In this document: positions 39,968-52,242 of the stretch, piece after piece
Position numbering within the stretch: the first letter of the stretch is position 1
How the letters are laid out: each line of letters begins with the position of its first letter
Assembly: GCF_000420365.1 (NCBI RefSeq)
Contig: NZ_ATUU01000001.1
Location: 124,001-188,000 of the forward strand
Length of the DNA: 64,000 nt
From: Weissella halotolerans DSM 20190
GTDB taxonomy: Bacteria > Bacillota > Bacilli > Lactobacillales > Lactobacillaceae
Direction of reading: 5' to 3'
Made by a program: the position numbers and the translations under genes
Notes under the pieces: generated by a model
Seen by the model: only the letters and a program-made list of their open reading frames with translations
The model's database searches: none
Told to the model about the DNA's origin: nothing

Positions 39968-40863
39968 CCAATATTTTTGATTACATTCACCAAGAAAGCC
40001 ATAACCACCAGGTAACTAAGATGTGCCGAATCCTCGGTGTTTCCAGAGCTCAGTATTATCGTTATCGATCCCCAAAGCCTTCAAAACGCCGGGCCGAAGA
40101 TGAGGACTTAAAACAACGGATTCTGCGGATCTTTGCGGAATTCAAGCAGCGATACGGCGTTATGAAGATCCACCATGAATTGAATCTGGAACTTCAACCA
40201 CTGCAGCGTCGGTGCAGCCCAAGACGGATTTCCCGGCTCATGAAGGAACTGGATATCCACTCCGTTACCGTCAATAAATGGAAAGCGGCTTCGGCTTCCA
40301 AAACCAAGGTTGAACAGCGTCTCAACTTGCTTAAGCAGGATTTCTCGACCACTGGTTTAAATCAAAAATGGACCGCTGATATGACCTATATTCAAACGAA
40401 GCGTAATGGCTGGTGTTACTTATCAACCATCATGGATCTGCACTCAAGACGAATTATCGGCTATTCATTCTCAAAAAAGATGGATACTGATTTAGTCTTA
40501 AAGACCCTGGAAAGCGCGGTTAAAAATCGAACCATTACTGGGGACCTGATTATCCACACAGACTTAGGATCACAGTACACCAGCGATGATTACAACCAAC
40601 GGTTAACAGAACTACATATCCGCCACTCTTACAGCCGTAAGGGGTGTCCATACGATAATGCACCAATGGAATCTTTTCATGCTTCCCTCAAAAAGGAATG
40701 TGTTTATCCAGTGCCGGTCTTTGAGAATTATGAAACTGCCGCTGCTGTCCTTTTTGAATATGTGCATGCTTTCTACAATAGGAAGAGAATTCATAGTTCA
40801 CTGGGCTACCAGACCCCCTTACAAGTTGAAATCGCAACGCTTACGAGCCAAATGGCCGCCTGA
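39934..40863 (+). CDS. IS3-family transposase OrfB (DDE integrase domain, frameshift product)
   Basis: rve-type integrase. Catalytic DDE residues are in TADMTYI, HTDLGSQY and the Glu of MESFHASLKKE. The frame is open from the A7 slippery site at 39934, so the natural product is an OrfAB fusion by -1 frameshift; an internal ATG at 40021 could give OrfB alone. No inactivating change seen. Confidence 0.9.
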   Translation, partial: KKSPGLPCAEVTNIFDYIHQESHNHQVTKMCRILGVSRAQYYRYRSPKPSKRRAEDEDLKQRILRIFAEFKQRYGVMKIHHELNLELQPLQRRCSPRRISRLMKELDIHSVTVNKWKAASASKTKVEQRLNLLKQDFSTTGLNQKWTADMTYIQTKRNGWCYLSTIMDLHSRRIIGYSFSKKMDTDLVLKTLESAVKNRTITGDLIIHTDLGSQYTSDDYNQRLTELHIRHSYSRKGCPYDNAPMESFHASLKKECVYPVPVFENYETAAAVLFEYVHAFYNRKRIHSSLGYQTPLQVEIATLTSQMAA

Positions 40864-40967
40864 TTTAATGCTTTCCATGGTTCAAATAAGTTATTAATCA
40901 CGATTAATGATTTATTGGAGCTGTGGAAGGTAAACGCGGTTCTGAATGTCTCTTAAAACCTGTCTCA

Positions 40968-41108
40968 AATATTGACTTCAATCCAAAGAATAAGGATGTT
41001 CATTATGATGGCGGCCTCAATCTCTTAGATATTTTTAGTGATATAAATGGAACTAGAAACAACTTACATGAATTAAACATTCCTAACTGCATTGGCTGCT
41101 GTATATAA
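40968..41108 (+). pseudogene. C-terminal fragment of an unknown gene beside the IS
   Basis: A 46-codon open frame that runs out of the IS border and ends in a Cys-rich tail (CIGCC). It has no start of its own outside the IS. Probably the tail of a gene cut by the insertion or by a later deletion; identity unknown. Confidence 0.4.
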
Positions 41109-41112
41109 GCTT

Positions 41113-41387
41113 AGAAAGATGTAGCTATGCGAGCCGGTTTGAAGAGTAAGCACGTCACAGAAGAAGCTATTGTTGCATTATTAAACAGCATTTTCCGGTA
41201 TTTAGCAGCTTCTGAAACCGTGCAAATCATTGGCTTTGGCACTTTTGAAACACGCGAACGTAGTGCTCATATTGGACGTAACACCGTAACAGGTGAATCA
41301 ATTACAATATCTGCTAGAACTATGCCTTTATTCAGAACGGGTAAGCCTCATGAGGCTCCAATCAAAGCAAAATCCCAAATCGATTAA
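41113..41387 (+). pseudogene. HU-family DNA-binding protein, N-terminally truncated
   Basis: Clear HU body: RAGLKSKHVTEEAIVALL, then IIGFGTFETRERSAHIGRN and a PLFRTGK C-terminal arm segment. About 10-12 N-terminal residues are missing; reading back in frame hits TAG just before KDVAM. The internal ATG at 41127 lacks a good ribosome site. It is a relic, or at best a shortened protein. Followed by a strong terminator. Confidence 0.7.
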
Positions 41388-41402
41388 TCTACGTATGTAC
41401 TG

Positions 41403-41437
41403 AAAAAAGAGACCTCCTTTACAGAGGTCTCTTTTTT
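41403..41437 (+). terminator. Terminator after the HU relic
   Basis: Stem AAAAAAGAGACCTC / GAGGTCTCTTTTTT. Confidence 0.9.
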
Positions 41438-41440
41438 CTT

Positions 41441-41783
41441 CAGTAACTTTTTTAAGGCATTTTCTATTAGCGTATACGCACTAACATACTGGATATTACT
41501 AGTTATTGTGATAGACAGTATACGCAGAAGTATATTTTTGGCCTAGCACTATCAAATGAAGTATTATAGCATTATATACTATCTTGCATACTAGATGATA
41601 TGCCTACCCGTATACTTCTAAATATACTATCTAAGGTACTATGCGCTCCTATACCACATTCACCTTAAGTACAATAAGTGATCGTTCATAACAATTTGCA
41701 CAGAAACTATTATATGAAAACTAACGAAATTAGTGTTTTACCAGCTTAGTTAACGTGAACTAAAGTTTACCTTTGTCAAGTAC
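41441..41783. repeat. AT-rich intergenic stretch with clustered TATAC-type repeats
   Basis: No gene. Within about 180 bp there are several related words: palindromic GCGTATACGC near 41470, CAGTATACGC near 41517, CCGTATACTT near 41609, and TATACTATCT twice (near 41576 and 41623). The spacing is irregular. It resembles a plasmid centromere or replication region but could be chance in AT-rich DNA. Confidence 0.4.
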
Positions 41784-42942
41784 ATGATTCACAAAAATAA
41801 CTCTATTCTTTTTCATTATTGCATATTATTCAATGAGAAAGAAAGGGCACATAACTTGAAAAGTTCGCAGTCTATCAAGAAATCGACCGCCTTGCTATGT
41901 GACAAGACTCGCCTATATAACTTAAGAATGGCTATCGAGCTGTCGGAACACAATACCGAGCAGAATTGGGCTTAAAAAATAGAAGACAAAAGAAAATTAA
42001 ACTTACCAAAAGGGAAAAGGGGATAGTACTAGCACACTTAGAATCAGGGTGGTCACCAGAACAGATCTTTCATACAAAATTACATGAAAAAATAAGTGTT
42101 CATAGCCTATATAATCTTATTAACTATCGACAAATACCAGGTGTTAATCCTCGGTTACATCTTGTTCGTAAACAGAAACCCTTTATAAGACAGCTTAACT
42201 GCTCGCTCAAATAACCTAAGAAACAAGACCAGCAAACACTAGCATTGATTAGAAGCACAGCAACACGACATTATAAATATGCCAAGAAAGCATATGCCGA
42301 GAAAGCTGAAGGTGGGTTCAATTATTCTAAGATTGCCGATTGATGTGCGGCCAGATATCATTAATTCCAGGCAACAATTCGGTCATTTTGAGATTGACGG
42401 TGTCGAATCATCTAAAAGTAAATACATAGTCTTAACACGGCTTGCACATAAAACACTCATGTTATTCGCGATTATCATTCCAAACAAGCTAGCACAGACA
42501 GTAGCACGTGCAATAGAATCGTTTGCTATACATCTACAGCGACATTGTTCACTCAATCACAAGTAATAATGGAAAAGAATTCGTTAATCAAACAGTTAAC
42601 TCTGTCATGGTCAATTACCAGGTAAAACACTACATAGCACACCCATATTCAGCCTATGAAAATGGATTAAACGAGAACTTTAATGGCATCCTCAGACGCC
42701 ATTTCCCTAAGGGTACAGACTTTTCAAAAGTGTCACAAGAGTTATTTAACGATGCCTGTATGAAAATCAATCAAAAACCACTCATGATGTTTAACTTTAA
42801 AACAACTGCAGACCAACAGTTCGAAGCAGCACTAAATAGATTACGTGGACACCGTAATCAAGTTAAGATAAGTAATTCAAAAGAAATTCTTAGCAAACCG
42901 ACAGAAACTGATTACAAGCAGCAAATCTTTACACATTTGTAA
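41784..42942 (+). pseudogene. IS30-family transposase, frameshifted remnant
   Basis: Homology continues across three frames. Frame pieces: N-terminal FNEKERAH region (41784-41975); ESGWSPEQIFHTKL (41966-42214); FGHFEIDGVESS (42279-42566); and NNGKEFVNQT with HPYSAYENGLNENFNGILRRHFPKG (42523-42942). These are the HTH and DDE blocks of IS30 transposases. At least two frameshifts make it inactive. Confidence 0.85.
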
Positions 42943-42996
42943 TAAAAAGCATGTATGCATTAAAGCAAATACTTTTCTTGTATATATGCTTTTTAA
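42943..42996 (+). terminator. Hairpin after the IS30 remnant
   Basis: AAAAAGCATGTATGCA pairs imperfectly with TGTATATATGCTTTTT, followed by T-rich DNA. Confidence 0.5.
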
Positions 42997-43168
42997 ATAT
43001 CAAGTATTTTTTATTACAATATTAAGAAGCACTTGACAACGGACTGCTTTACCTCTTTGTGTTACTCTTTATAATATATATTATGTAAACTAGTCGATTG
43101 CAAACATAAAAACATTTGTCAAGTTCATGTGCAACATTCTCTTTGTAAAAGCCTATCCCCTGCAACAA

Positions 43169-43214
43169 AAATTCCTCTGTAAACATTATACCATAAGGGT
43201 TTACAGAGGAATTT
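43169..43214. repeat. Perfect 16-bp inverted repeat
   Basis: AAATTCCTCTGTAAAC (43169-43184) and its exact complement GTTTACAGAGGAATTT (43199-43214) around a 14-nt loop. No T-run follows. Could be the fused ends of a deleted element or a protein-binding hairpin. Confidence 0.6.
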
Positions 43215-43224
43215 GACATTTTAG

Positions 43225-43419
43225 GGAAACACTAAGATATCACAGGAATATTTAGAAACTACAATTCAACATAATATTAAACAATCAATGCTTAGTCAGA
43301 CTGAAGTGATTGCAGAACACATAACTGACTACATGGAATATGGATTTCTTGATCAAAATGGCATTGATACATCTAGCATGAGAGAAGAATTAGAGATACA
43401 ACTTAAAAAAGGTACTTGA
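43225..43419 (+). pseudogene. Short C-terminal gene remnant
   Basis: A 64-codon coding-like frame (contains EVIAEHITDYMEYGFLD) without a start codon near its beginning; an internal ATG would give only about 36 residues. Probably a relic. Followed by a bidirectional terminator. Confidence 0.4.
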
Positions 43420-43479
43420 AATTACACAAAAAGTAGTTTTAGATCCCTTGATGAAGAAAAAGCAAATTAAGTTAATTAC

Positions 43480-43512
43480 AAGAAAAGCCTCTTTAATAAA
43501 GAGGCTTTTCTT
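43480..43512. terminator. Bidirectional terminator
   Basis: Stem AAGAAAAGCCTCTTT / AAAGAGGCTTTTCTT; serves the fic-like gene on the minus strand. Confidence 0.9.
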
Positions 43513-43523
43513 GAAGCTATGTT

Positions 43524-44363
43524 TTAGAGTTTTGGATCTACTCTCTCCTGCTCAGAAACCAATGGTTGGGTCAATTCCTGGTAACGTTCCTTGCCTAACA
43601 ACCCCTTTGCATTGAGTCCCTTAAATTGGTTCAAATGCTTTTGATGCTCATCTGAGTAATCATAATATTGATGTTCAGGGTCATAGAACGTTTTACCGTC
43701 ATAGTCACTAACTGCAATGTTTTCAAGCACCTCATTTAAGAGGCGGTCATCATTGCTCCAATAGTAATCATTCATCAAACCTAACGTATTTTCCATGGCT
43801 GGTTCAGGAATATAGAATACACCTGCTCCTGCTTTTAACAAAGGAACATTTGCTGCTAATACGGCTGTCCGTTTATTCGTATCGTTAAAGAGTTGGGCCC
43901 TAGATAAGTAGGTAAACAACTTAGTTGCTTTAGTTTCAGGGGTTAATTCATCAGTAGCTAATAAATAATTAACGGTTGTTTTAGCTTCCTTTTCATTAAC
44001 TGGATCAGGGATAAACGTTCCCTTTTTGGTTTGCACACCGCCCCTTCCAGTTCTTAGCTGACCAGGATTAATCGTATCGTCACGGCCTGTAGTTTCATGC
44101 AACTGTTTTAACTTATCAAAGTTAAACGTAGCATAATTCTGTAAAACAAAGTCTGCGCCCTTGTGCATATCATGTACAACTAAAATGTCTTTTGCGGTCA
44201 GTCCATTAATGGGTTCATTGTTAATGATTTGTTCAGTTTGCAAGAGCGTAATTGGGAGTCCTTCAAATTGAGCACCGTCATGGACGATATTGGGAACGGC
44301 CTTTTTAAAGAGAAGTTCTTCTGTCTTTTTATCAAATTGATATTTTTTTAGGGTAAACGCCAT
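43524..44363 (-). CDS. Fic/Doc-family protein with altered catalytic motif
   Basis: 279 aa. Fic proteins transfer AMP or phosphate to targets. The Fic loop reads QLFNDTNKRTA (about residues 157-167); Doc-type enzymes have HxFxDANKRTA, so the catalytic His is Gln. The upstream flap (INPGQLRTGRGGV) is preserved. Near the N-terminus DGAQFEGLPITL aligns with the class II inhibitory helix (usual S/TxxxEGN), with Gly instead of Ser/Thr. ATG at 44363 is chosen by GGAG spacing; an ATG at 44375 is possible. Monocistronic, inside the accessory island. Confidence 0.82.
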   Translation of the reverse strand: MAFTLKKYQFDKKTEELLFKKAVPNIVHDGAQFEGLPITLLQTEQIINNEPINGLTAKDILVVHDMHKGADFVLQNYATFNFDKLKQLHETTGRDDTINPGQLRTGRGGVQTKKGTFIPDPVNEKEAKTTVNYLLATDELTPETKATKLFTYLSRAQLFNDTNKRTAVLAANVPLLKAGAGVFYIPEPAMENTLGLMNDYYWSNDDRLLNEVLENIAVSDYDGKTFYDPEHQYYDYSDEHQKHLNQFKGLNAKGLLGKERYQELTQPLVSEQERVDPKL

Positions 44364-44390
44364 AATAATCTCCATGCTTGTTGAGCTAAT

Positions 44391-44454: not shown

Positions 44455-44568
44455 TTTTTATGAAATTTTGAAGATATATATGTATTTTTTTCAAGTCGTT
44501 CGGACAGTACTTTTAATTAGTTTTAACATAAAAATCGGTTAAATTAAACCCTTTCATTTAACAAAATA

Positions 44569-44583
44569 TCAGGTTAAACTGAA
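44569..44583 (-). promoter_or_regulatory. Putative SOS-type operator, distal site of DUF1906 gene
   Basis: Minus-strand TTCAGTTTAACCTGA matches 13 of 15 positions of the shared palindrome. It lies 62 bp upstream of the better site. Confidence 0.5.
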
Positions 44584-44630
44584 CGTGTCGACAAGGAAAG
44601 AACTAAACGAGCTCGTTTTTTACTCTGAAG

Positions 44631-44645
44631 TTAGGTTTAACCTAA
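44631..44645 (+). promoter_or_regulatory. Putative SOS-type operator, proximal site of DUF1906 gene
   Basis: TTAGGTT-T-AACCTAA, a perfect 7-bp palindrome around one base, 28 bp before the start codon. One mismatch from the site at 48088 and two from the umuC site at 52228. Confidence 0.65.
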
Positions 44646-44673
44646 CTAAACTTATTAAAAAGGTGGTTTATTT

Positions 44674-46707
44674 ATGGATCAACAAGTCTTAGATACACAA
44701 AAGTGGTTGAACAAAACTTATTCAGGTGTTGCAGGTTATCAACCTGTTAAAGAAAATGGTCTAACTGGGTGGCCAACGATTTATGCTCTACGTGAAGGAT
44801 TACAACACGAAGTCGGTATCAGTCCCGTTGCTTCAGGCTTTGGTAGTGCAACTGAAGCAGGCGTAAGTAAAGTTGTCGGAAAACTAAAAGTTGGTTATTC
44901 AGGAAACTTAGTCCGTTTGGTTCAAGGGGCATTTTGGGCAAAAGGGATTTCGCCCAATGCATTTGACGGTAAATTTACTACATCTACTGAAAATGCAATC
45001 AAAGAATTGCAAAGCAATGCTGGATTAAATGCTTCAGGTACCATGACTACAGAGTTAATGAAAGCTTTGTTTGACATGAGTGCTTTTACATTAGTATTTG
45101 GTGGTAAGCCGAATATCCGTGCAATGCAACAATACTTAAATGGTCATTATCATAAGTATTTCGGAATTTTACCTTGTGACGGTATCTACCAACGAGATAC
45201 TAACACAGCTCTCATCTATGCTCTTCAGGTAGAAATTGGCCTCGGTTCTGTGGCGAATGGCTATTATGGGCCTGGAACAATTAACGCCACTCCTACTTTA
45301 AATGTTGGGGCATCTGGATCAATCGTTAAAATCTTACAATATGGTCTAATGGTAAATGGTTACTATTCAGGTAATATTGACGGTCAGTTTACGTCAGCAA
45401 TCGGTAGCGATATTATTGCTTTCCGTAAATTTATGAACCTTCCTCCTTACACGTCTACTGCTGACCTCACGGTTATTAAGGGCTTGCTAACCAGTAATGG
45501 TAATGTTAATCGTGATGCATCAGCTATGGATACTTCTAAGCAACTCACTGCTAGCGACGTGAATGCGTTAAAGGCTGGTGGTTATAAAGTAATTGGACGC
45601 TATTTGACCGGTTCAGTAGGTACAGGAACAGCCAAACGGAATAAGTATTTGACCCGTTCTGAAATTTCAACTATTACGAATGCTGGAATTCGCATCTTCC
45701 CTATTTATCAAGACGGTGGTTGGGATATTAGCTACTTTACCGCTGCACAAGGTGCCGCAGATGCACGTGCTGCCTCGTTAGCAGCTAGTCAGCTTGGTTT
45801 CCCTCATGGAACGACGATCTATTTCGCAGCAGATTTAGATATTGAAAATGGGAATATTGCTGGAACGGTTTTCCCTTATATCAAGGCGGTTGCAAGTCAT
45901 TTATCAGGATATAAGGTTGGTATCTATGGAACTCGTAACGTTTGTTCACGAGCTACAGAAGAAACTGGTGTCGTAACTAGTTCATTTGTGGCAGACATGT
46001 CAACAGGATTTTCCGGAAACCTCGGTTTTCCAATGCCTAAGAATTGGGCCTTTGACCAATTCGTCGAATTTACATTATCCGGTATACCAGTAGATAATTT
46101 AGGCATGTCAGGTCGTGATACTGGAACGCTAGCATTTAACAAGACGATTTCTCAAAAAGAGGCCATTCGCAAAGTCACCGGAAACTTTGATATGGCATTA
46201 GACGGCCCTTCAGTATTAATGGTTAATACCCGTTATCTCACTGTTTCGGCACATGCCTCTAGCAGGATCAATACTGTTGGAGGATCTCATGCGATTAATA
46301 TTACTAATGGAAAGTTCGATTCTGTTAGCATTGGTAAGGCATTAAATGTTCCAACACCATTGGTAGATGTAGCACTTCATTTCCCTGGTGTTGATTTAAC
46401 CACGGATATTAGTGAAGGGGAAGTGCATATTGGCTCGATTTCTTTAAGCACTGGTAAGGTAACTATTGAAGTTGTTGTAAAGAGTTTAAAAGATGCTGTT
46501 ATTGATGCAGAGTTCTCTCTAGTTTTTGACGTCTTTATTGACAAAGAACAAATCAAAACTGACTTCAAAAATGCTGTAATTGGGCTCTCTGAAGGTGCAA
46601 TATTAACAATTGCTGCTTTGATAATTGTTGGATTAACTGGTTTTGCTGGCCCAGCCGGTACCACAACTGGTGTCGAAGTGGCTGGAACTATTGTAAGCTT
46701 GGCATAG
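44674..46707 (+). CDS. Leaderless DUF1906 glycoside-hydrolase-like protein with peptidoglycan-binding repeats and hydrophobic C-terminus
   Basis: 677 aa. Residues 1-275 hold three peptidoglycan-binding-like units (for example FDGKFTTSTENAIKELQ at about 97-113 and IDGQFTSAIGSDIIAF at about 235-250). Residues 282-495 are a DUF1906 domain (AMDTSKQLTASDVNALKAGG, IYFAADLDIE), a TIM-barrel related to GH25-like hydrolases. Residues 500-677 are a separate domain ending in hydrophobic segments (about 640-660 and 666-677). There is no signal peptide. Two operator-like sites precede it and a multi-TM gene converges on it, so a colicin-like role is possible. Confidence 0.8.
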   Translation: MDQQVLDTQKWLNKTYSGVAGYQPVKENGLTGWPTIYALREGLQHEVGISPVASGFGSATEAGVSKVVGKLKVGYSGNLVRLVQGAFWAKGISPNAFDGKFTTSTENAIKELQSNAGLNASGTMTTELMKALFDMSAFTLVFGGKPNIRAMQQYLNGHYHKYFGILPCDGIYQRDTNTALIYALQVEIGLGSVANGYYGPGTINATPTLNVGASGSIVKILQYGLMVNGYYSGNIDGQFTSAIGSDIIAFRKFMNLPPYTSTADLTVIKGLLTSNGNVNRDASAMDTSKQLTASDVNALKAGGYKVIGRYLTGSVGTGTAKRNKYLTRSEISTITNAGIRIFPIYQDGGWDISYFTAAQGAADARAASLAASQLGFPHGTTIYFAADLDIENGNIAGTVFPYIKAVASHLSGYKVGIYGTRNVCSRATEETGVVTSSFVADMSTGFSGNLGFPMPKNWAFDQFVEFTLSGIPVDNLGMSGRDTGTLAFNKTISQKEAIRKVTGNFDMALDGPSVLMVNTRYLTVSAHASSRINTVGGSHAINITNGKFDSVSIGKALNVPTPLVDVALHFPGVDLTTDISEGEVHIGSISLSTGKVTIEVVVKSLKDAVIDAEFSLVFDVFIDKEQIKTDFKNAVIGLSEGAILTIAALIIVGLTGFAGPAGTTTGVEVAGTIVSLA

Positions 46708-46757
46708 CCTATTTCTGCAAATAAAGAGACTGTTTCTAGTCAATTAAAGTGATATAA

Positions 46758-46794
46758 ATCCCATTAGTTTGAGGAAAAACTAATGGGATTTTAT
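46758..46794. terminator. Bidirectional terminator DUF1906 / TM protein
   Basis: Stem AATCCCATTAGTTT / AAACTAATGGGATT between the convergent pair. Confidence 0.88.
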
Positions 46795-46811
46795 TATGTT
46801 CTCTAAACAAG

Positions 46812-47402
46812 TTAAACAAGTTCAATCATCATTTCTAAAGCTACTAATACGCCTACCGTAAGACTAGTTTTTAAGAATGTGTTGACTTCAGTCAATGACA
46901 TGCTCAGCACTATTTTCTGTTGCGCCATTGTTTGTTTAATACTCTTAGCACTTTCATCATTCTTGAATAATTCCTCAGCTTTCGACAAGACATAATCCAG
47001 TGCTTTTAATAACATCTTTAGGTAAAACTTATGTAAGATATTGAAAGCCAGTAGTAACATTATAGGTACAAAGAAACTAGTAATCTTTAAATTTCTTTTT
47101 GTTACCACCACAGCTACAATCCAAATGAAAGCTAACCATTTAGTGCTTAAAGCGCCTACGGTTATAAATCTATACTTTAGTCGATCTTGTGGATGTCCCT
47201 TTAAAAATTGCTCTATTACATACTTAATAATATTTATACCATATTTTTTTTTAAAGTCTTGAATTCCTAGCCAGATTGGAGTTTTCAAATCAGCATATCC
47301 AATTTCACTTCTTTTTTCTTTTAACTGAAATAAGACAGGTACAAAACAAATAACCACTATGATTATTGCTAAATTAATTAATAAGTTTAAAAAATCCTTC
47401 AT
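46812..47402 (-). CDS. Multi-TM protein convergent with the DUF1906 gene; immunity candidate
   Basis: 196 aa with four hydrophobic segments (about residues 4-26, 79-101, 107-123, 171-194) and a basic amphipathic loop between. No family recognised. Its place, downstream of and opposite to a leaderless wall-binding protein with hydrophobic C-terminus, copies pore-forming colicin immunity genes. The start follows GGGGGAA. AT-rich, as expected for transferred DNA. Confidence 0.65.
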   Translation of the reverse strand: MKDFLNLLINLAIIIVVICFVPVLFQLKEKRSEIGYADLKTPIWLGIQDFKKKYGINIIKYVIEQFLKGHPQDRLKYRFITVGALSTKWLAFIWIVAVVVTKRNLKITSFFVPIMLLLAFNILHKFYLKMLLKALDYVLSKAEELFKNDESAKSIKQTMAQQKIVLSMSLTEVNTFLKTSLTVGVLVALEMMIELV

Positions 47403-47669: not shown

Positions 47670-48056
47670 TTACTGTAGCTCACACCACTGTATATTTGCT
47701 AAATCAATCTGAGTATTTTTCTCAAACACAATCTTATCCTCCACATAGCCTAAAACCTTACTTGTCTGAATGGCTGGTGCTATGCCTTGAATATCCCGAT
47801 ACTTTTCTTGGTAGAGCACAATTAGACCGTTTTTATATGCCTTGAATAACTTACTAGAGATGTCTTCCATATCCATTTCAGGCATCACCTTAGTACGCAT
47901 CTTCTTCTGTCGATCAGTTGAATAAGAATGAACATCTTCGGTTTGATCAGATAAAAAATCTCCTTACCATTTAACCATTTCCCGTTCTTTATAATCATGT
48001 TCAAAAAAGTATCGAGTTCGTTCGATTGCCTGTACTTCATCTTCAGTTATTCCCAT
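47670..48056 (-). pseudogene. yolD: yolD-like gene inactivated by one nonsense codon
   Basis: From ATG at 48056 the frame reads MGITEDEVQAIERTRYFFE and on to MVKW, then TAA, then continues in the same frame to the end at 47670 with strong similarity to the intact YolD copy at 50503-50892 (for example KVLGYVEDKIVFE versus KVLGYVDDKIVFE). The intact copy has Gln at the stop position, so CAA-to-TAA is the simplest history. No umuC gene accompanies this copy. Confidence 0.85.
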
Positions 48057-48087
48057 AATTTTCCACCCCAATAGTATCAATTTCAGA

Positions 48088-48102
48088 TTAAGTTTAACCT
48101 AA
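48088..48102 (-). promoter_or_regulatory. Putative SOS-type operator of the yolD relic
   Basis: Plus strand reads TTAAGTTTAACCTAA. It overlaps a plausible minus-strand promoter (TTGCAA, 17 bp, TAAACT). Confidence 0.6.
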
Positions 48103-48168: not shown

Positions 48169-48672
48169 TTAAATGAAGAGAGTAATCGCTTTTGTTACCC
48201 AATCAGCATCTCGTGGCGATAATCCTACACGACGTAAGGCGGAATAAATAATATGATATTCAGTACCCGTAAAATGATCAATCGCCTTTAAAAGACCACT
48301 TAATCCGGTATATTGACCAATTTTACGGCGCACGCTAGCTGGTAGCTTCTTCCACACTCTTAATACCGCTTTAGCGACCGTAGTACCCCCAACAAATTCT
48401 GTCGTTGGCTTTTGGGCAGAGTTATATAAGTCGATCACTTCTTGATTAGTCATTTGTGCATAATCATAGTCATTAAAACCTGCATATTGCGTTAAAAAGG
48501 TTTTAGCTGTTTGTAATTGGGTATCAGAGGCCGTTTGTACCACCTTTGCCGGACTTTCTACCTCATCAGCATGTGCAATAACCACACCAGATGCTGGTAC
48601 AGCAATACTTGAAGCTAATAACGCTAAAATAGAAAACTTGTTGAATGACTTGATGATATGTGTATACTGCAT
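48169..48672 (-). CDS. Secreted basic helical protein, bacteriocin candidate
   Basis: 167 aa with a Sec signal peptide (basic n-region, hydrophobic residues 13-33) and an AHA-DEV cleavage site after residue 35. The mature 132-aa product has no Cys. Its second half is basic and helical (AVLRVWKKLPASVRRKIGQ), ending in a hydrophobic WVTKAITLFI. The family was not recognised. It is the second gene of a pair with a small two-TM protein, the layout of bacteriocin-immunity operons. Confidence 0.7.
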   Translation of the reverse strand: MQYTHIIKSFNKFSILALLASSIAVPASGVVIAHADEVESPAKVVQTASDTQLQTAKTFLTQYAGFNDYDYAQMTNQEVIDLYNSAQKPTTEFVGGTTVAKAVLRVWKKLPASVRRKIGQYTGLSGLLKAIDHFTGTEYHIIYSALRRVGLSPRDADWVTKAITLFI

Positions 48673-48673
48673 C

Positions 48674-48913
48674 TTACTTTCTCCTAATCGTCCTAACTAT
48701 TCCAACGAATATATAGATAATCTGGCTTACAGACCAATAAAAGAGTGTTAAATAAGAGCAAATAGCAATTAAATCTGTTTTTTTAATGAAAAAGTAAATC
48801 ACTAGTCCCCCTAGACCAATTACTAAAAGAAGCATATTCAGTATATTTAATGTCATTTCAGCAATACTTTTGTTGGCTGTATTTTTTTGCGTGTTATCTG
48901 ATTTCATATTCAT
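48674..48913 (-). CDS. Small two-TM protein, possible immunity partner
   Basis: 79 aa: polar N-terminus (KSDNTQKNTANKS), TM helices at about residues 23-46 and 49-73, and a basic C-terminus (RTIRRK). Not recognised by family. AAGGAG is 5 nt before the ATG. It is promoter-proximal and only one base from the secreted protein, so they are made together. Small two-TM proteins of this kind commonly give self-protection. Confidence 0.7.
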   Translation of the reverse strand: MNMKSDNTQKNTANKSIAEMTLNILNMLLLVIGLGGLVIYFFIKKTDLIAICSYLTLFYWSVSQIIYIFVGIVRTIRRK

Positions 48914-50502: not shown

Positions 50503-50892
50503 TTAGTTTAAATCACACCATTGGATACTGTCCAAGCTCACCTGTCTATTCCTTTCAAAAACAATTTTATCATCAACATATCCCAAAACTTTACTAACTT
50601 GAAGGGGTGGCACAGTTCCTTGTATGTCTTGGGTCTTTTCTTGATACAGAACCACTAACTTATTCTTATAGGCCTTAAATAATAAACTAGCCACTTGACC
50701 TATTTCCATTTCAGGCATCAATGGCGTCGTCAAGCTAGCCTGTCGTTTAGCTGAATACGCCTGCACATCTTCTGTATGATCGGACAAATAGTAACCCTGC
50801 CACTTCACCATGCCCCGGTCCTGATAATCCCGTTCAAAAAAATGTTTCGCTCGTTCAATCGCTATGCGCCTGTCCTTATCTTTCGACACCAT
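50503..50892 (-). CDS. yolD: YolD-like protein (translesion polymerase accessory)
   Basis: 129 aa by the preferred start. YolD-like proteins are small partners encoded with Y-family polymerases in Firmicutes and phages. The C-terminal KVLGYVDDKIVFE and SIQWCDL segments are typical. ATG at 50892 is chosen because GGAGG lies 8 nt upstream; the frame is open further back (TTG at 50919). It overlaps the umuC 3' end, so it is translated from the same message. Confidence 0.88.
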   Translation of the reverse strand: MVSKDKDRRIAIERAKHFFERDYQDRGMVKWQGYYLSDHTEDVQAYSAKRQASLTTPLMPEMEIGQVASLLFKAYKNKLVVLYQEKTQDIQGTVPPLQVSKVLGYVDDKIVFERNRQVSLDSIQWCDLN

Positions 50893-52195
50893 AGGCATTA
50901 CCTCCACTGTGTCCGCCAACTAAGCCTGCCCGTTGAATCATCGTACCACCTAAGGCTAATGACGACGATTTAACCAGCGCTGTAGTTCCAAATTTATGGC
51001 GAATCTGATCCACTACCTGATCAAGCATCTGTTTCTTCACATCAATTTCTGGGTCGGTAAACAAGTCTAACTGCGTATGTCCATCTGGCTGTAACTTGCC
51101 GGCCCCCACACCAATATGACGAATAGTCTGGCCTTCATAATGCACATCAAATAATTCGTACAGGGCCGCTACAATTTTATCTGATTGATTCGTGACATCA
51201 AGTTTGATGTTGGCATGAAAACCCGCCGCTTGTTCATGCATGCTCGTCCCTAGATACAGCGATAATAAACCAGCCTCTTTATGCTGCCCCCTAAGTCTGG
51301 CCGCAATTTGCTCACCAATTTCTCGAATAACATTCTTAATTTCAGCCGGTCGATTATAATCCCTTGGTAACACCTGACTATTAGAAATACTAGCCGCTTT
51401 AGTATGATATCGTTTAGCCACCACGCTCCGATCAACCCCCCAGGCTAATGCAATCAATTCTCCTCCACGAACACCGAACTTTTCAACTAATTTATAGGGA
51501 TTATACAAGGCCAAATCTTCCATTGATAAAATACCTAAGCGATTAAGCTTTTTAGCTGTTTTTTTACCGATGCTCCATACCTGGCTCAGTTCGTTCAGCG
51601 GCCATAACTTATGCGGCACATTTTCATAATGCCATTCCCCAATCAAGGTCCGATTATGTTTAGCTTCTATATCAAGCGCCAGTTTGGCCATTGTCGGGTT
51701 ATCACCTATTCCCACCGTTAAATAAAGACCAAAACGTTTTTTAGCCGCTAATTGAATAATCCTAGCTAAGTCGGTCATCGTTAGCGACTGCCCATATTTA
51801 AACCGTAAGTAGGTCCAGGACGGTGTAAGGTCTAACAATGATTCATCTATTGAATAAAGATGTAAATCCTCTTCAGCGACAAATTCCCTAAAGAGGTCAT
51901 TCACTTGCTTATTCATTGCAATATAGTAATTCATGCGTGGCTCAACAATCAATAAGCGAGGATCATCAGGAACATCTCGACTCCGCGTAACATTACTAAT
52001 CCCTAATTCTTTTTTAGCTCGTGGTGAGGCGGCCAATACTAATCCGCCATTCGTATTTTCTTGACGACTCATGACCACCAACATGGTGGTTAATGGGTTC
52101 AACCCACGGGCCGCACATTCACAACTGGCATAAAAACTTTTAGAATCAATCATCATCACTTTTCGCCTTTGTTCATTTATACTGGCAATTTGCAT
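50876..52195 (-). CDS. umuC: Y-family DNA polymerase, UmuC/UvrX-like
   Basis: 439-aa translesion polymerase. Catalytic acids are in MIDSKSFYASCEC (Asp of motif I) and LYSIDESLLDL (Asp-Glu of motif III); helix-hairpin-helix and little-finger domains follow (SIGKKTAKKLNRLGI). Followed by overlapping yolD. The promoter region contains the palindromic operator at 52228, between TTGATA and an AT-rich -10, as expected of a DNA-damage-inducible unit. Confidence 0.94.
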   Translation of the reverse strand: MQIASINEQRRKVMMIDSKSFYASCECAARGLNPLTTMLVVMSRQENTNGGLVLAASPRAKKELGISNVTRSRDVPDDPRLLIVEPRMNYYIAMNKQVNDLFREFVAEEDLHLYSIDESLLDLTPSWTYLRFKYGQSLTMTDLARIIQLAAKKRFGLYLTVGIGDNPTMAKLALDIEAKHNRTLIGEWHYENVPHKLWPLNELSQVWSIGKKTAKKLNRLGILSMEDLALYNPYKLVEKFGVRGGELIALAWGVDRSVVAKRYHTKAASISNSQVLPRDYNRPAEIKNVIREIGEQIAARLRGQHKEAGLLSLYLGTSMHEQAAGFHANIKLDVTNQSDKIVAALYELFDVHYEGQTIRHIGVGAGKLQPDGHTQLDLFTDPEIDVKKQMLDQVVDQIRHKFGTTALVKSSSLALGGTMIQRAGLVGGHSGGNAYGVER

Positions 52196-52227: not shown

Positions 52228-52242
52228 TTAAGTTTAAACTAA
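52228..52242 (-). promoter_or_regulatory. Putative SOS-type operator of umuC-yolD
   Basis: Plus strand TTAAGTTTAAACTAA, near-perfect palindrome, 33 bp upstream of the umuC start and placed between the promoter hexamers. Confidence 0.65.

Follow-up and report, generated by a model that had tools for sequence, protein, structure and literature searches.

A chromosomal BacA homologue with a divergent C-terminal domain and a convergent candidate immunity gene in Weissella halotolerans

Introduction

The bacteriocin Bac41 has been described (PMC8532689, PMC7117660, PMC9951850) and is associated with plasmids of Enterococcus faecalis, including pYI14 and pMG2200, the latter listed as carrying bac41 (PMC7117660). 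BacA is one of the two proteins that carry out its killing. The Bac41 operon contains six ORFs, and BacA acts in it together with the endopeptidase BacL1, as a BacL1 co-factor (PMC9951850). Diversity downstream of the bac gene has been tied to specific immunity factors (PMC8532689). On pMG2200 the genes are ordered as an amidohydrolase (in the BacL1 position), BacL2, a holin, an orf, a 726-aa homologue of the protein reported here, a 180-aa protein with four TM segments and a YcxB protein. The pMG2200 record annotates only BacL2 by name, and the name BacA is assigned here to the 726-aa homologue because this gene order fits the six-ORF operon and the plasmid is listed with bac41. In work attributed to Kurushima et al. 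in 2016, the C-terminal region of BacA and BacI1 or BacI2 reportedly determine the specificity of immunity.

Pore-forming colicins are leaderless and damage-inducible, and their TM immunity gene lies on the opposite strand. Bacillus YbfG-type proteins (Ybfg_C, PF21015) are followed by multi-TM ORFs. The idea of a wall-binding carrier is also already known from predicted PGBD-Rv2525c-TelC toxins, in which peptidoglycan (PG) binding and an Rv2525c-like barrel are joined to a toxin at the C-terminus; a 3-TM protein accompanies some of them (PMC12419801).

Results

The bacA-like gene and its product

We analyzed a 64,000-nucleotide stretch of the W. halotolerans DSM 20190 genome (the window). It includes a bacA-like gene at 44674..46707 on the + strand, defined from the ORF list, Pfam, hydropathy, AF2 and comparison with pMG2200. 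The 677-aa product is 53% identical to pMG2200 BacA over 578 aa. By segment, identity is 58% for residues 1-290 and 59% for residues 291-486, and drops to 29% for residues 487-677. Based on sequence comparison, the locus encodes a chromosomal relative of BacA with an apparently fast-changing C-terminal end.

Pfam detected PG_binding_1 in two stretches (4e-21) and PF08924, the Rv2525c/DUF1906 glycoside-hydrolase-like (GH-like) domain, at residues 297-463 (2e-47). AF2 suggested four three-helix PG-binding-like modules in residues 1-273. Using both, we placed the PG-binding modules at residues about 1-273 and the GH-like barrel, in which D387 and D389 are conserved acidic residues, at about 284-463. 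The full-length model (mean pLDDT 73) has helical modules to residue 273, then the barrel, then a beta-rich C-terminal domain with terminal helices. The protein has no leader-like hydrophobic N-terminus, as the maximum 19-residue mean hydropathy near the N-terminus is 0.27, and a hydrophobic segment (hydropathy 2.3) occupies residues 634-652 of the C-terminus. The first-pass annotation had described PG-binding repeats with a DUF1906 domain, no signal peptide, and a separate C-terminal domain with a hydrophobic end, and all of these hold.

Bac41 BacA and the window protein share this organization: PG-binding and Rv2525c/DUF1906 domains with no visible leader, a variable C-terminal domain with a hydrophobic tail, and adjoining TM candidates, one of which in Bac41 (180 aa) has the same four-TM layout. 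The N-terminal architecture is also that of the YbfG-type proteins, at about 49% identity, and several homologues have a related C-terminal domain; the window C-terminal domain, however, falls below the Pfam Ybfg_C profile, and the Bacillus partners are codirectional with their genes. Unlike the PGBD-Rv2525c-TelC proteins, whose toxin is a TelC Lipocone domain, the window protein has no recognized domain of this type.

Genomic setting

In contrast to Bac41, the window locus is chromosomal and stands apart from any bacL1/bacL2/holin operon. The six-gene Bac41 operon is absent at this position, and a search of the genome, run without a positive control, detected no BacL1 homologue; we therefore refer to the locus as a BacA homologue and not as a Bac41 system. 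Since Bac41 BacA works with BacL1, the 677-aa protein on its own may be unable to lyse cells. Neither a holin nor a lysin gene that could account for release adjoins the locus.

The 40-48 kb stretch of the window has a lower GC content (0.37 vs 0.42) and contains IS remnants. From about 40000 to 44000, the low-GC, IS-rich sequence shows a sign flip of GC skew, such as might mark a replication terminus or a hot spot for insertions. A gene for a Fic/Doc-domain protein (43524-44375) is divergent from the bacA-like gene, and an E. faecalis plasmid (L036) also has a Fic gene close to bacA. On the other side, a decayed, frame-broken yolD-like copy (47670-48060) adjoins the immunity candidate, and an intact paralogue is located at 50503-50919. 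The region 48169-48913 encodes a 167-aa protein with a signal-like start beside a 79-aa TM protein; the two may represent another secreted factor with its partner.

The convergent four-TM gene

A 196-aa protein is encoded at 46812..47402 on the - strand, with hydrophobic segments at residues 7-25, 82-100, 105-123 and 173-191. From its TM layout and the positional association seen across the family (below), we propose it as the cognate immunity protein, a BacI analogue. Between the two convergent genes is a near-symmetric 36-nt stem-loop (46756..46791), a putative shared terminator that could act on both strands because of its symmetry. The first-pass description of a four-TM gene facing the bacA-like gene across a common terminator is therefore accurate. 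The 196-aa gene lies on the opposite strand and so would be transcribed separately from the bacA-like gene.

The ORF has a GC content of 30%, compared with 42% for the window, and its open frame is longer than those in all 1000 shuffles of its own sequence (196 vs at most 170 codons). Searches of 251 genomes of the family and 28 of the genus, and of plasmids and viral contigs, turned up no convincing homologue of the protein, and profile comparison with other four-TM partners gave no significant alignment. In both its convergent orientation and its lack of sequence similarity, it differs from the Bac41 candidates. This sequence orphan occupies the immunity position and is probably the immunity gene, as judged from position and TM layout only.

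Family distribution and covariation with TM partners

Of 398 Lactobacillaceae genomes, 64 encode homologues of the N-terminal part; such proteins are also encoded on 543 plasmids, of which Enterococcus accounts for 384. Comparing 48 homologues pairwise, we detected N-terminal similarity throughout (median identity 51%) and C-terminal similarity in only 178 of 1128 pairs (median 27%). This divergence, the drop in identity to BacA and the AF2 model define a variable C-terminal domain at 46132..46704 (+ strand, residues 487-677), which we propose as the effector and immunity-specificity domain.

We then considered the neighbors, counting as a partner any ORF of 120-310 aa with at least two TM segments and located at most 300 bp downstream. 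A small multi-TM ORF is present near the C-terminal end of 36 of 43 distinct homologues, compared with 12 of 118 control genes. A comparable gene pair thus recurs in other genomes, where the first-pass annotation had proposed to search for it. Such counts are inflated by related sequences, and C-termini were therefore clustered at 60% identity. After clustering, 23 of 29 clusters have a partner under the strict rule (13 convergent, 10 codirectional) and 28 under a looser one. The single exception (L005) has an overlapping two-TM ORF that is excluded by the distance rule. A hydrophobic segment terminates the C-terminal domain in 27 of the 29 clusters.

The partners fall into two broad types, YcxB-like and four-TM, found on either strand. 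Partners are similar in 27 of 150 pairs with similar C-termini, compared with 0 of 630 pairs without. This covariation matches, at the sequence level, a toxin/immunity pattern like that reported for the E. faecalis proteins BacA and BacI. The family-wide association with multi-TM genes, together with N-terminal two thirds that correspond to BacA, upholds the broader first-pass view of a leaderless wall-targeting protein with a TM immunity candidate.

Some relatives have more elaborate arrangements. The nearest homologue (G017, L126) has two C-terminal modules in a partly masked region; each is paired with a convergent TM gene, and the two partners differ in type. In G007 (L127, C9:3500-10500), at least four YcxB-like genes are in tandem behind an interrupted bacA homologue, resembling an immunity array. 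Genes for BacL2-like and holin-like proteins and for a GH25 lysin precede bacA in G006 (L128), a Lactobacillus relative, so lysis is a plausible route of release in the family. A Lachnospiraceae ORF of 2271 aa or longer has the same PG-binding/DUF1906 start (L025, 1181-7995).

Predicted structure of the C-terminal domain

The first-pass annotation had compared the protein with pore-forming colicins and proposed structure prediction of the C-terminal region as a way to look for a helical pore-forming bundle. AF2 instead predicted, with modest confidence (pLDDT 68), a domain rich in beta structure that is followed by two short helices at the C-terminus, and no helical bundle. The hydrophobic tail was predicted as helical with pLDDT <50, too low to judge. 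Comparison of the model, with its poorly modeled tail, to PDB folds returned only unrelated families (best E 0.03 with Foldseek, best Z 4.0 with VIA-align). Given these weak matches and the quality of the tail, we neither claim nor exclude a fold for this domain. The pore-forming colicin proposal is not supported in its original form: the window protein has no homology to these colicins, no predicted helical bundle and, unlike them, domains that target a Gram-positive wall. The nearest precedent is the BacA/BacI pair of Bac41 and not the colicins.

Operators upstream of the bacA-like gene

The principal operator dyad, TTAGGTTTAACCTAA, is located at 44631..44645, 28 bp before the start codon, within the 19-nt sequence AGTTAGGTTTAACCTAACT, which is palindromic at 18 of 19 positions, the center base aside. 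The motif scan revealed two weaker operator-like sites upstream, TCAGGTTAAACTGAA at 44570..44584 (12/15) and TTAGTTTTAACATAA at 44517..44531 (13/15). The pattern GGTTNAACNNAAC has 4 matches in the window compared with 0.15 expected, indicating that the upstream dyads are not due to chance. Further copies are TTAAGTTTAACCTAA (48088..48102), intact before the decayed yolD-like gene, and TTAAGTTTAAACTAA (52228..52242), before umuC (50876-52195, - strand).

The motif TTAGGTTWAACYTAA or close variants thus precede the bacA-like gene, umuC and the decayed yolD-like gene, and elsewhere in the genome an XRE regulator. In other genomes of the genus it occurs before umuC, recX, yolD-like genes and an XRE regulator, and further sites precede an AI-2E-type transporter gene and an EndA-like gene (all names assigned by eye). 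It is also retained before the nearest bacA homologue (G017). Raw motif counts only modestly exceed those of a reversed-pattern control (28 vs 17), so the argument rests on these gene contexts.

We found no LexA box at 7/8 or better in the 300 bp upstream of the bacA-like gene, and none at the lexA locus of this genome; the LexA-controlled promoter of pore-forming colicins is thus not seen here. Among S24 repressors, the genome encodes one LexA and one weak match that resembles a signal peptidase. In other lactobacilli, a strict LexA box occurs in 6 of 50 regions upstream of homologues and in 0 of 248 controls. The two SOS-type operators reported at first pass are thus real dyads with a motif common to DNA-damage genes, but they are not LexA boxes. 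As judged from sequence, they belong to a different damage-type regulon, which also distinguishes the locus from Bac41. It is likely that the bacA-like gene is damage-inducible.

In G000 (C1:493042-494070; L043, L051), an XRE regulator and a 157-aa protein are flanked by three operator copies. This regulator is a candidate controller of the damage-type regulon (umuC, recX and bacA-like genes) in Lactobacillus. The 157-aa neighbor had been suspected by eye to be an ImmA/IrrE-type protease, and Pfam returned no match for it.

Discussion

In combination, these observations suggest that the locus very probably encodes a BacA-type protein bacteriocin together with the matching immunity protein. The best overall explanation, which we consider probable, is a damage-inducible BacA-type bacteriocin with a cognate candidate immunity protein. 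DNA damage would relieve repression of the bacA-like gene, and the 677-aa protein, made without a leader, would escape through lysis of a fraction of the cells. The PG-binding modules and the GH-like barrel would anchor it to the wall of close relatives, perhaps with some cutting. The C-terminal domain would then reach the membrane, where its hydrophobic tail would insert or block a membrane target, leading to killing. In the producer, the 196-aa four-TM protein would block this domain.

On the basis of its structure, Rv2525c has been proposed to act as a peptidoglycan hydrolase (Bellinzoni 2014, as cited in PMC12419801), and the carrier part of the window protein may accordingly bind the wall and possibly cleave glycan. 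As the partners are TM proteins, we infer that the C-terminal effector acts at the membrane. We lean toward this domain being the membrane-acting killing part, and regard true pore formation by it as rather unlikely.

It is also conceivable, at a low probability, that the protein is only a lytic co-factor or wall hydrolase: its activity would reside in the barrel and PG-binding modules, the C-terminal domain would bind the wall or a partner, and the TM protein would protect indirectly or be unrelated. The description of Bac41 BacA as a BacL1 co-factor (PMC9951850), the beta-rich prediction for the C-terminal domain and the conserved barrel acids D387 and D389 are in keeping with this. However, no BacL1 homologue was detected in the genome, the hydrophobic C-terminal segment recurs across nearly all clusters, and it is the C-terminal domain that diverges, not the barrel, with variation that tracks the membrane protein.

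Less probable still is a decayed or silent horizontally acquired module. The low-GC stretch with its IS remnants and the adjoining broken yolD-like copy would fit such a history, yet neither the bacA-like nor the 196-aa ORF is interrupted, and the operator, a near-perfect palindrome, is retained before the nearest homologue. A prophage endolysin remnant with an accidental neighbor, which the first-pass annotation had named as a refuting outcome, is very improbable: residues 1-493 do match PHROG endolysin families and a phage family of unknown function, but a search of 50,697 phage records gave only 2 matches, and a single viral contig matched, far from the plasmid and genome counts above, the ORF is full length with a family-wide TM neighbor association, and we recognized by eye no phage structural genes, prophage or lysis cassette among the surrounding ORFs.

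The BacA-type bacteriocin proposed here is new in three respects: its gene stands alone on a chromosome, the convergent immunity candidate is a sequence orphan, and the operator is a different one. In the literature consulted, Bac41 BacA appears chiefly in the role of BacL1 co-factor. A solo chromosomal BacA that comes with an immunity candidate, along with such pairs in about 1/6 of the sampled Lactobacillaceae genomes, suggests that the specific killing activity lies with BacA itself. More speculatively, and with less than even probability, the C-terminal domains of Bacillota BacA proteins may form one large unrecognized class of membrane-acting toxins, with polymorphic multi-TM immunity, a PG-binding/GH-like carrier and DNA-damage control, as a Gram-positive functional counterpart of colicins that is able to act without BacL1. 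The window locus offers a simple two-gene system for testing killing by BacA, and it would tie competition between strains of lactobacilli to DNA damage, in this case via an operator other than the LexA box.
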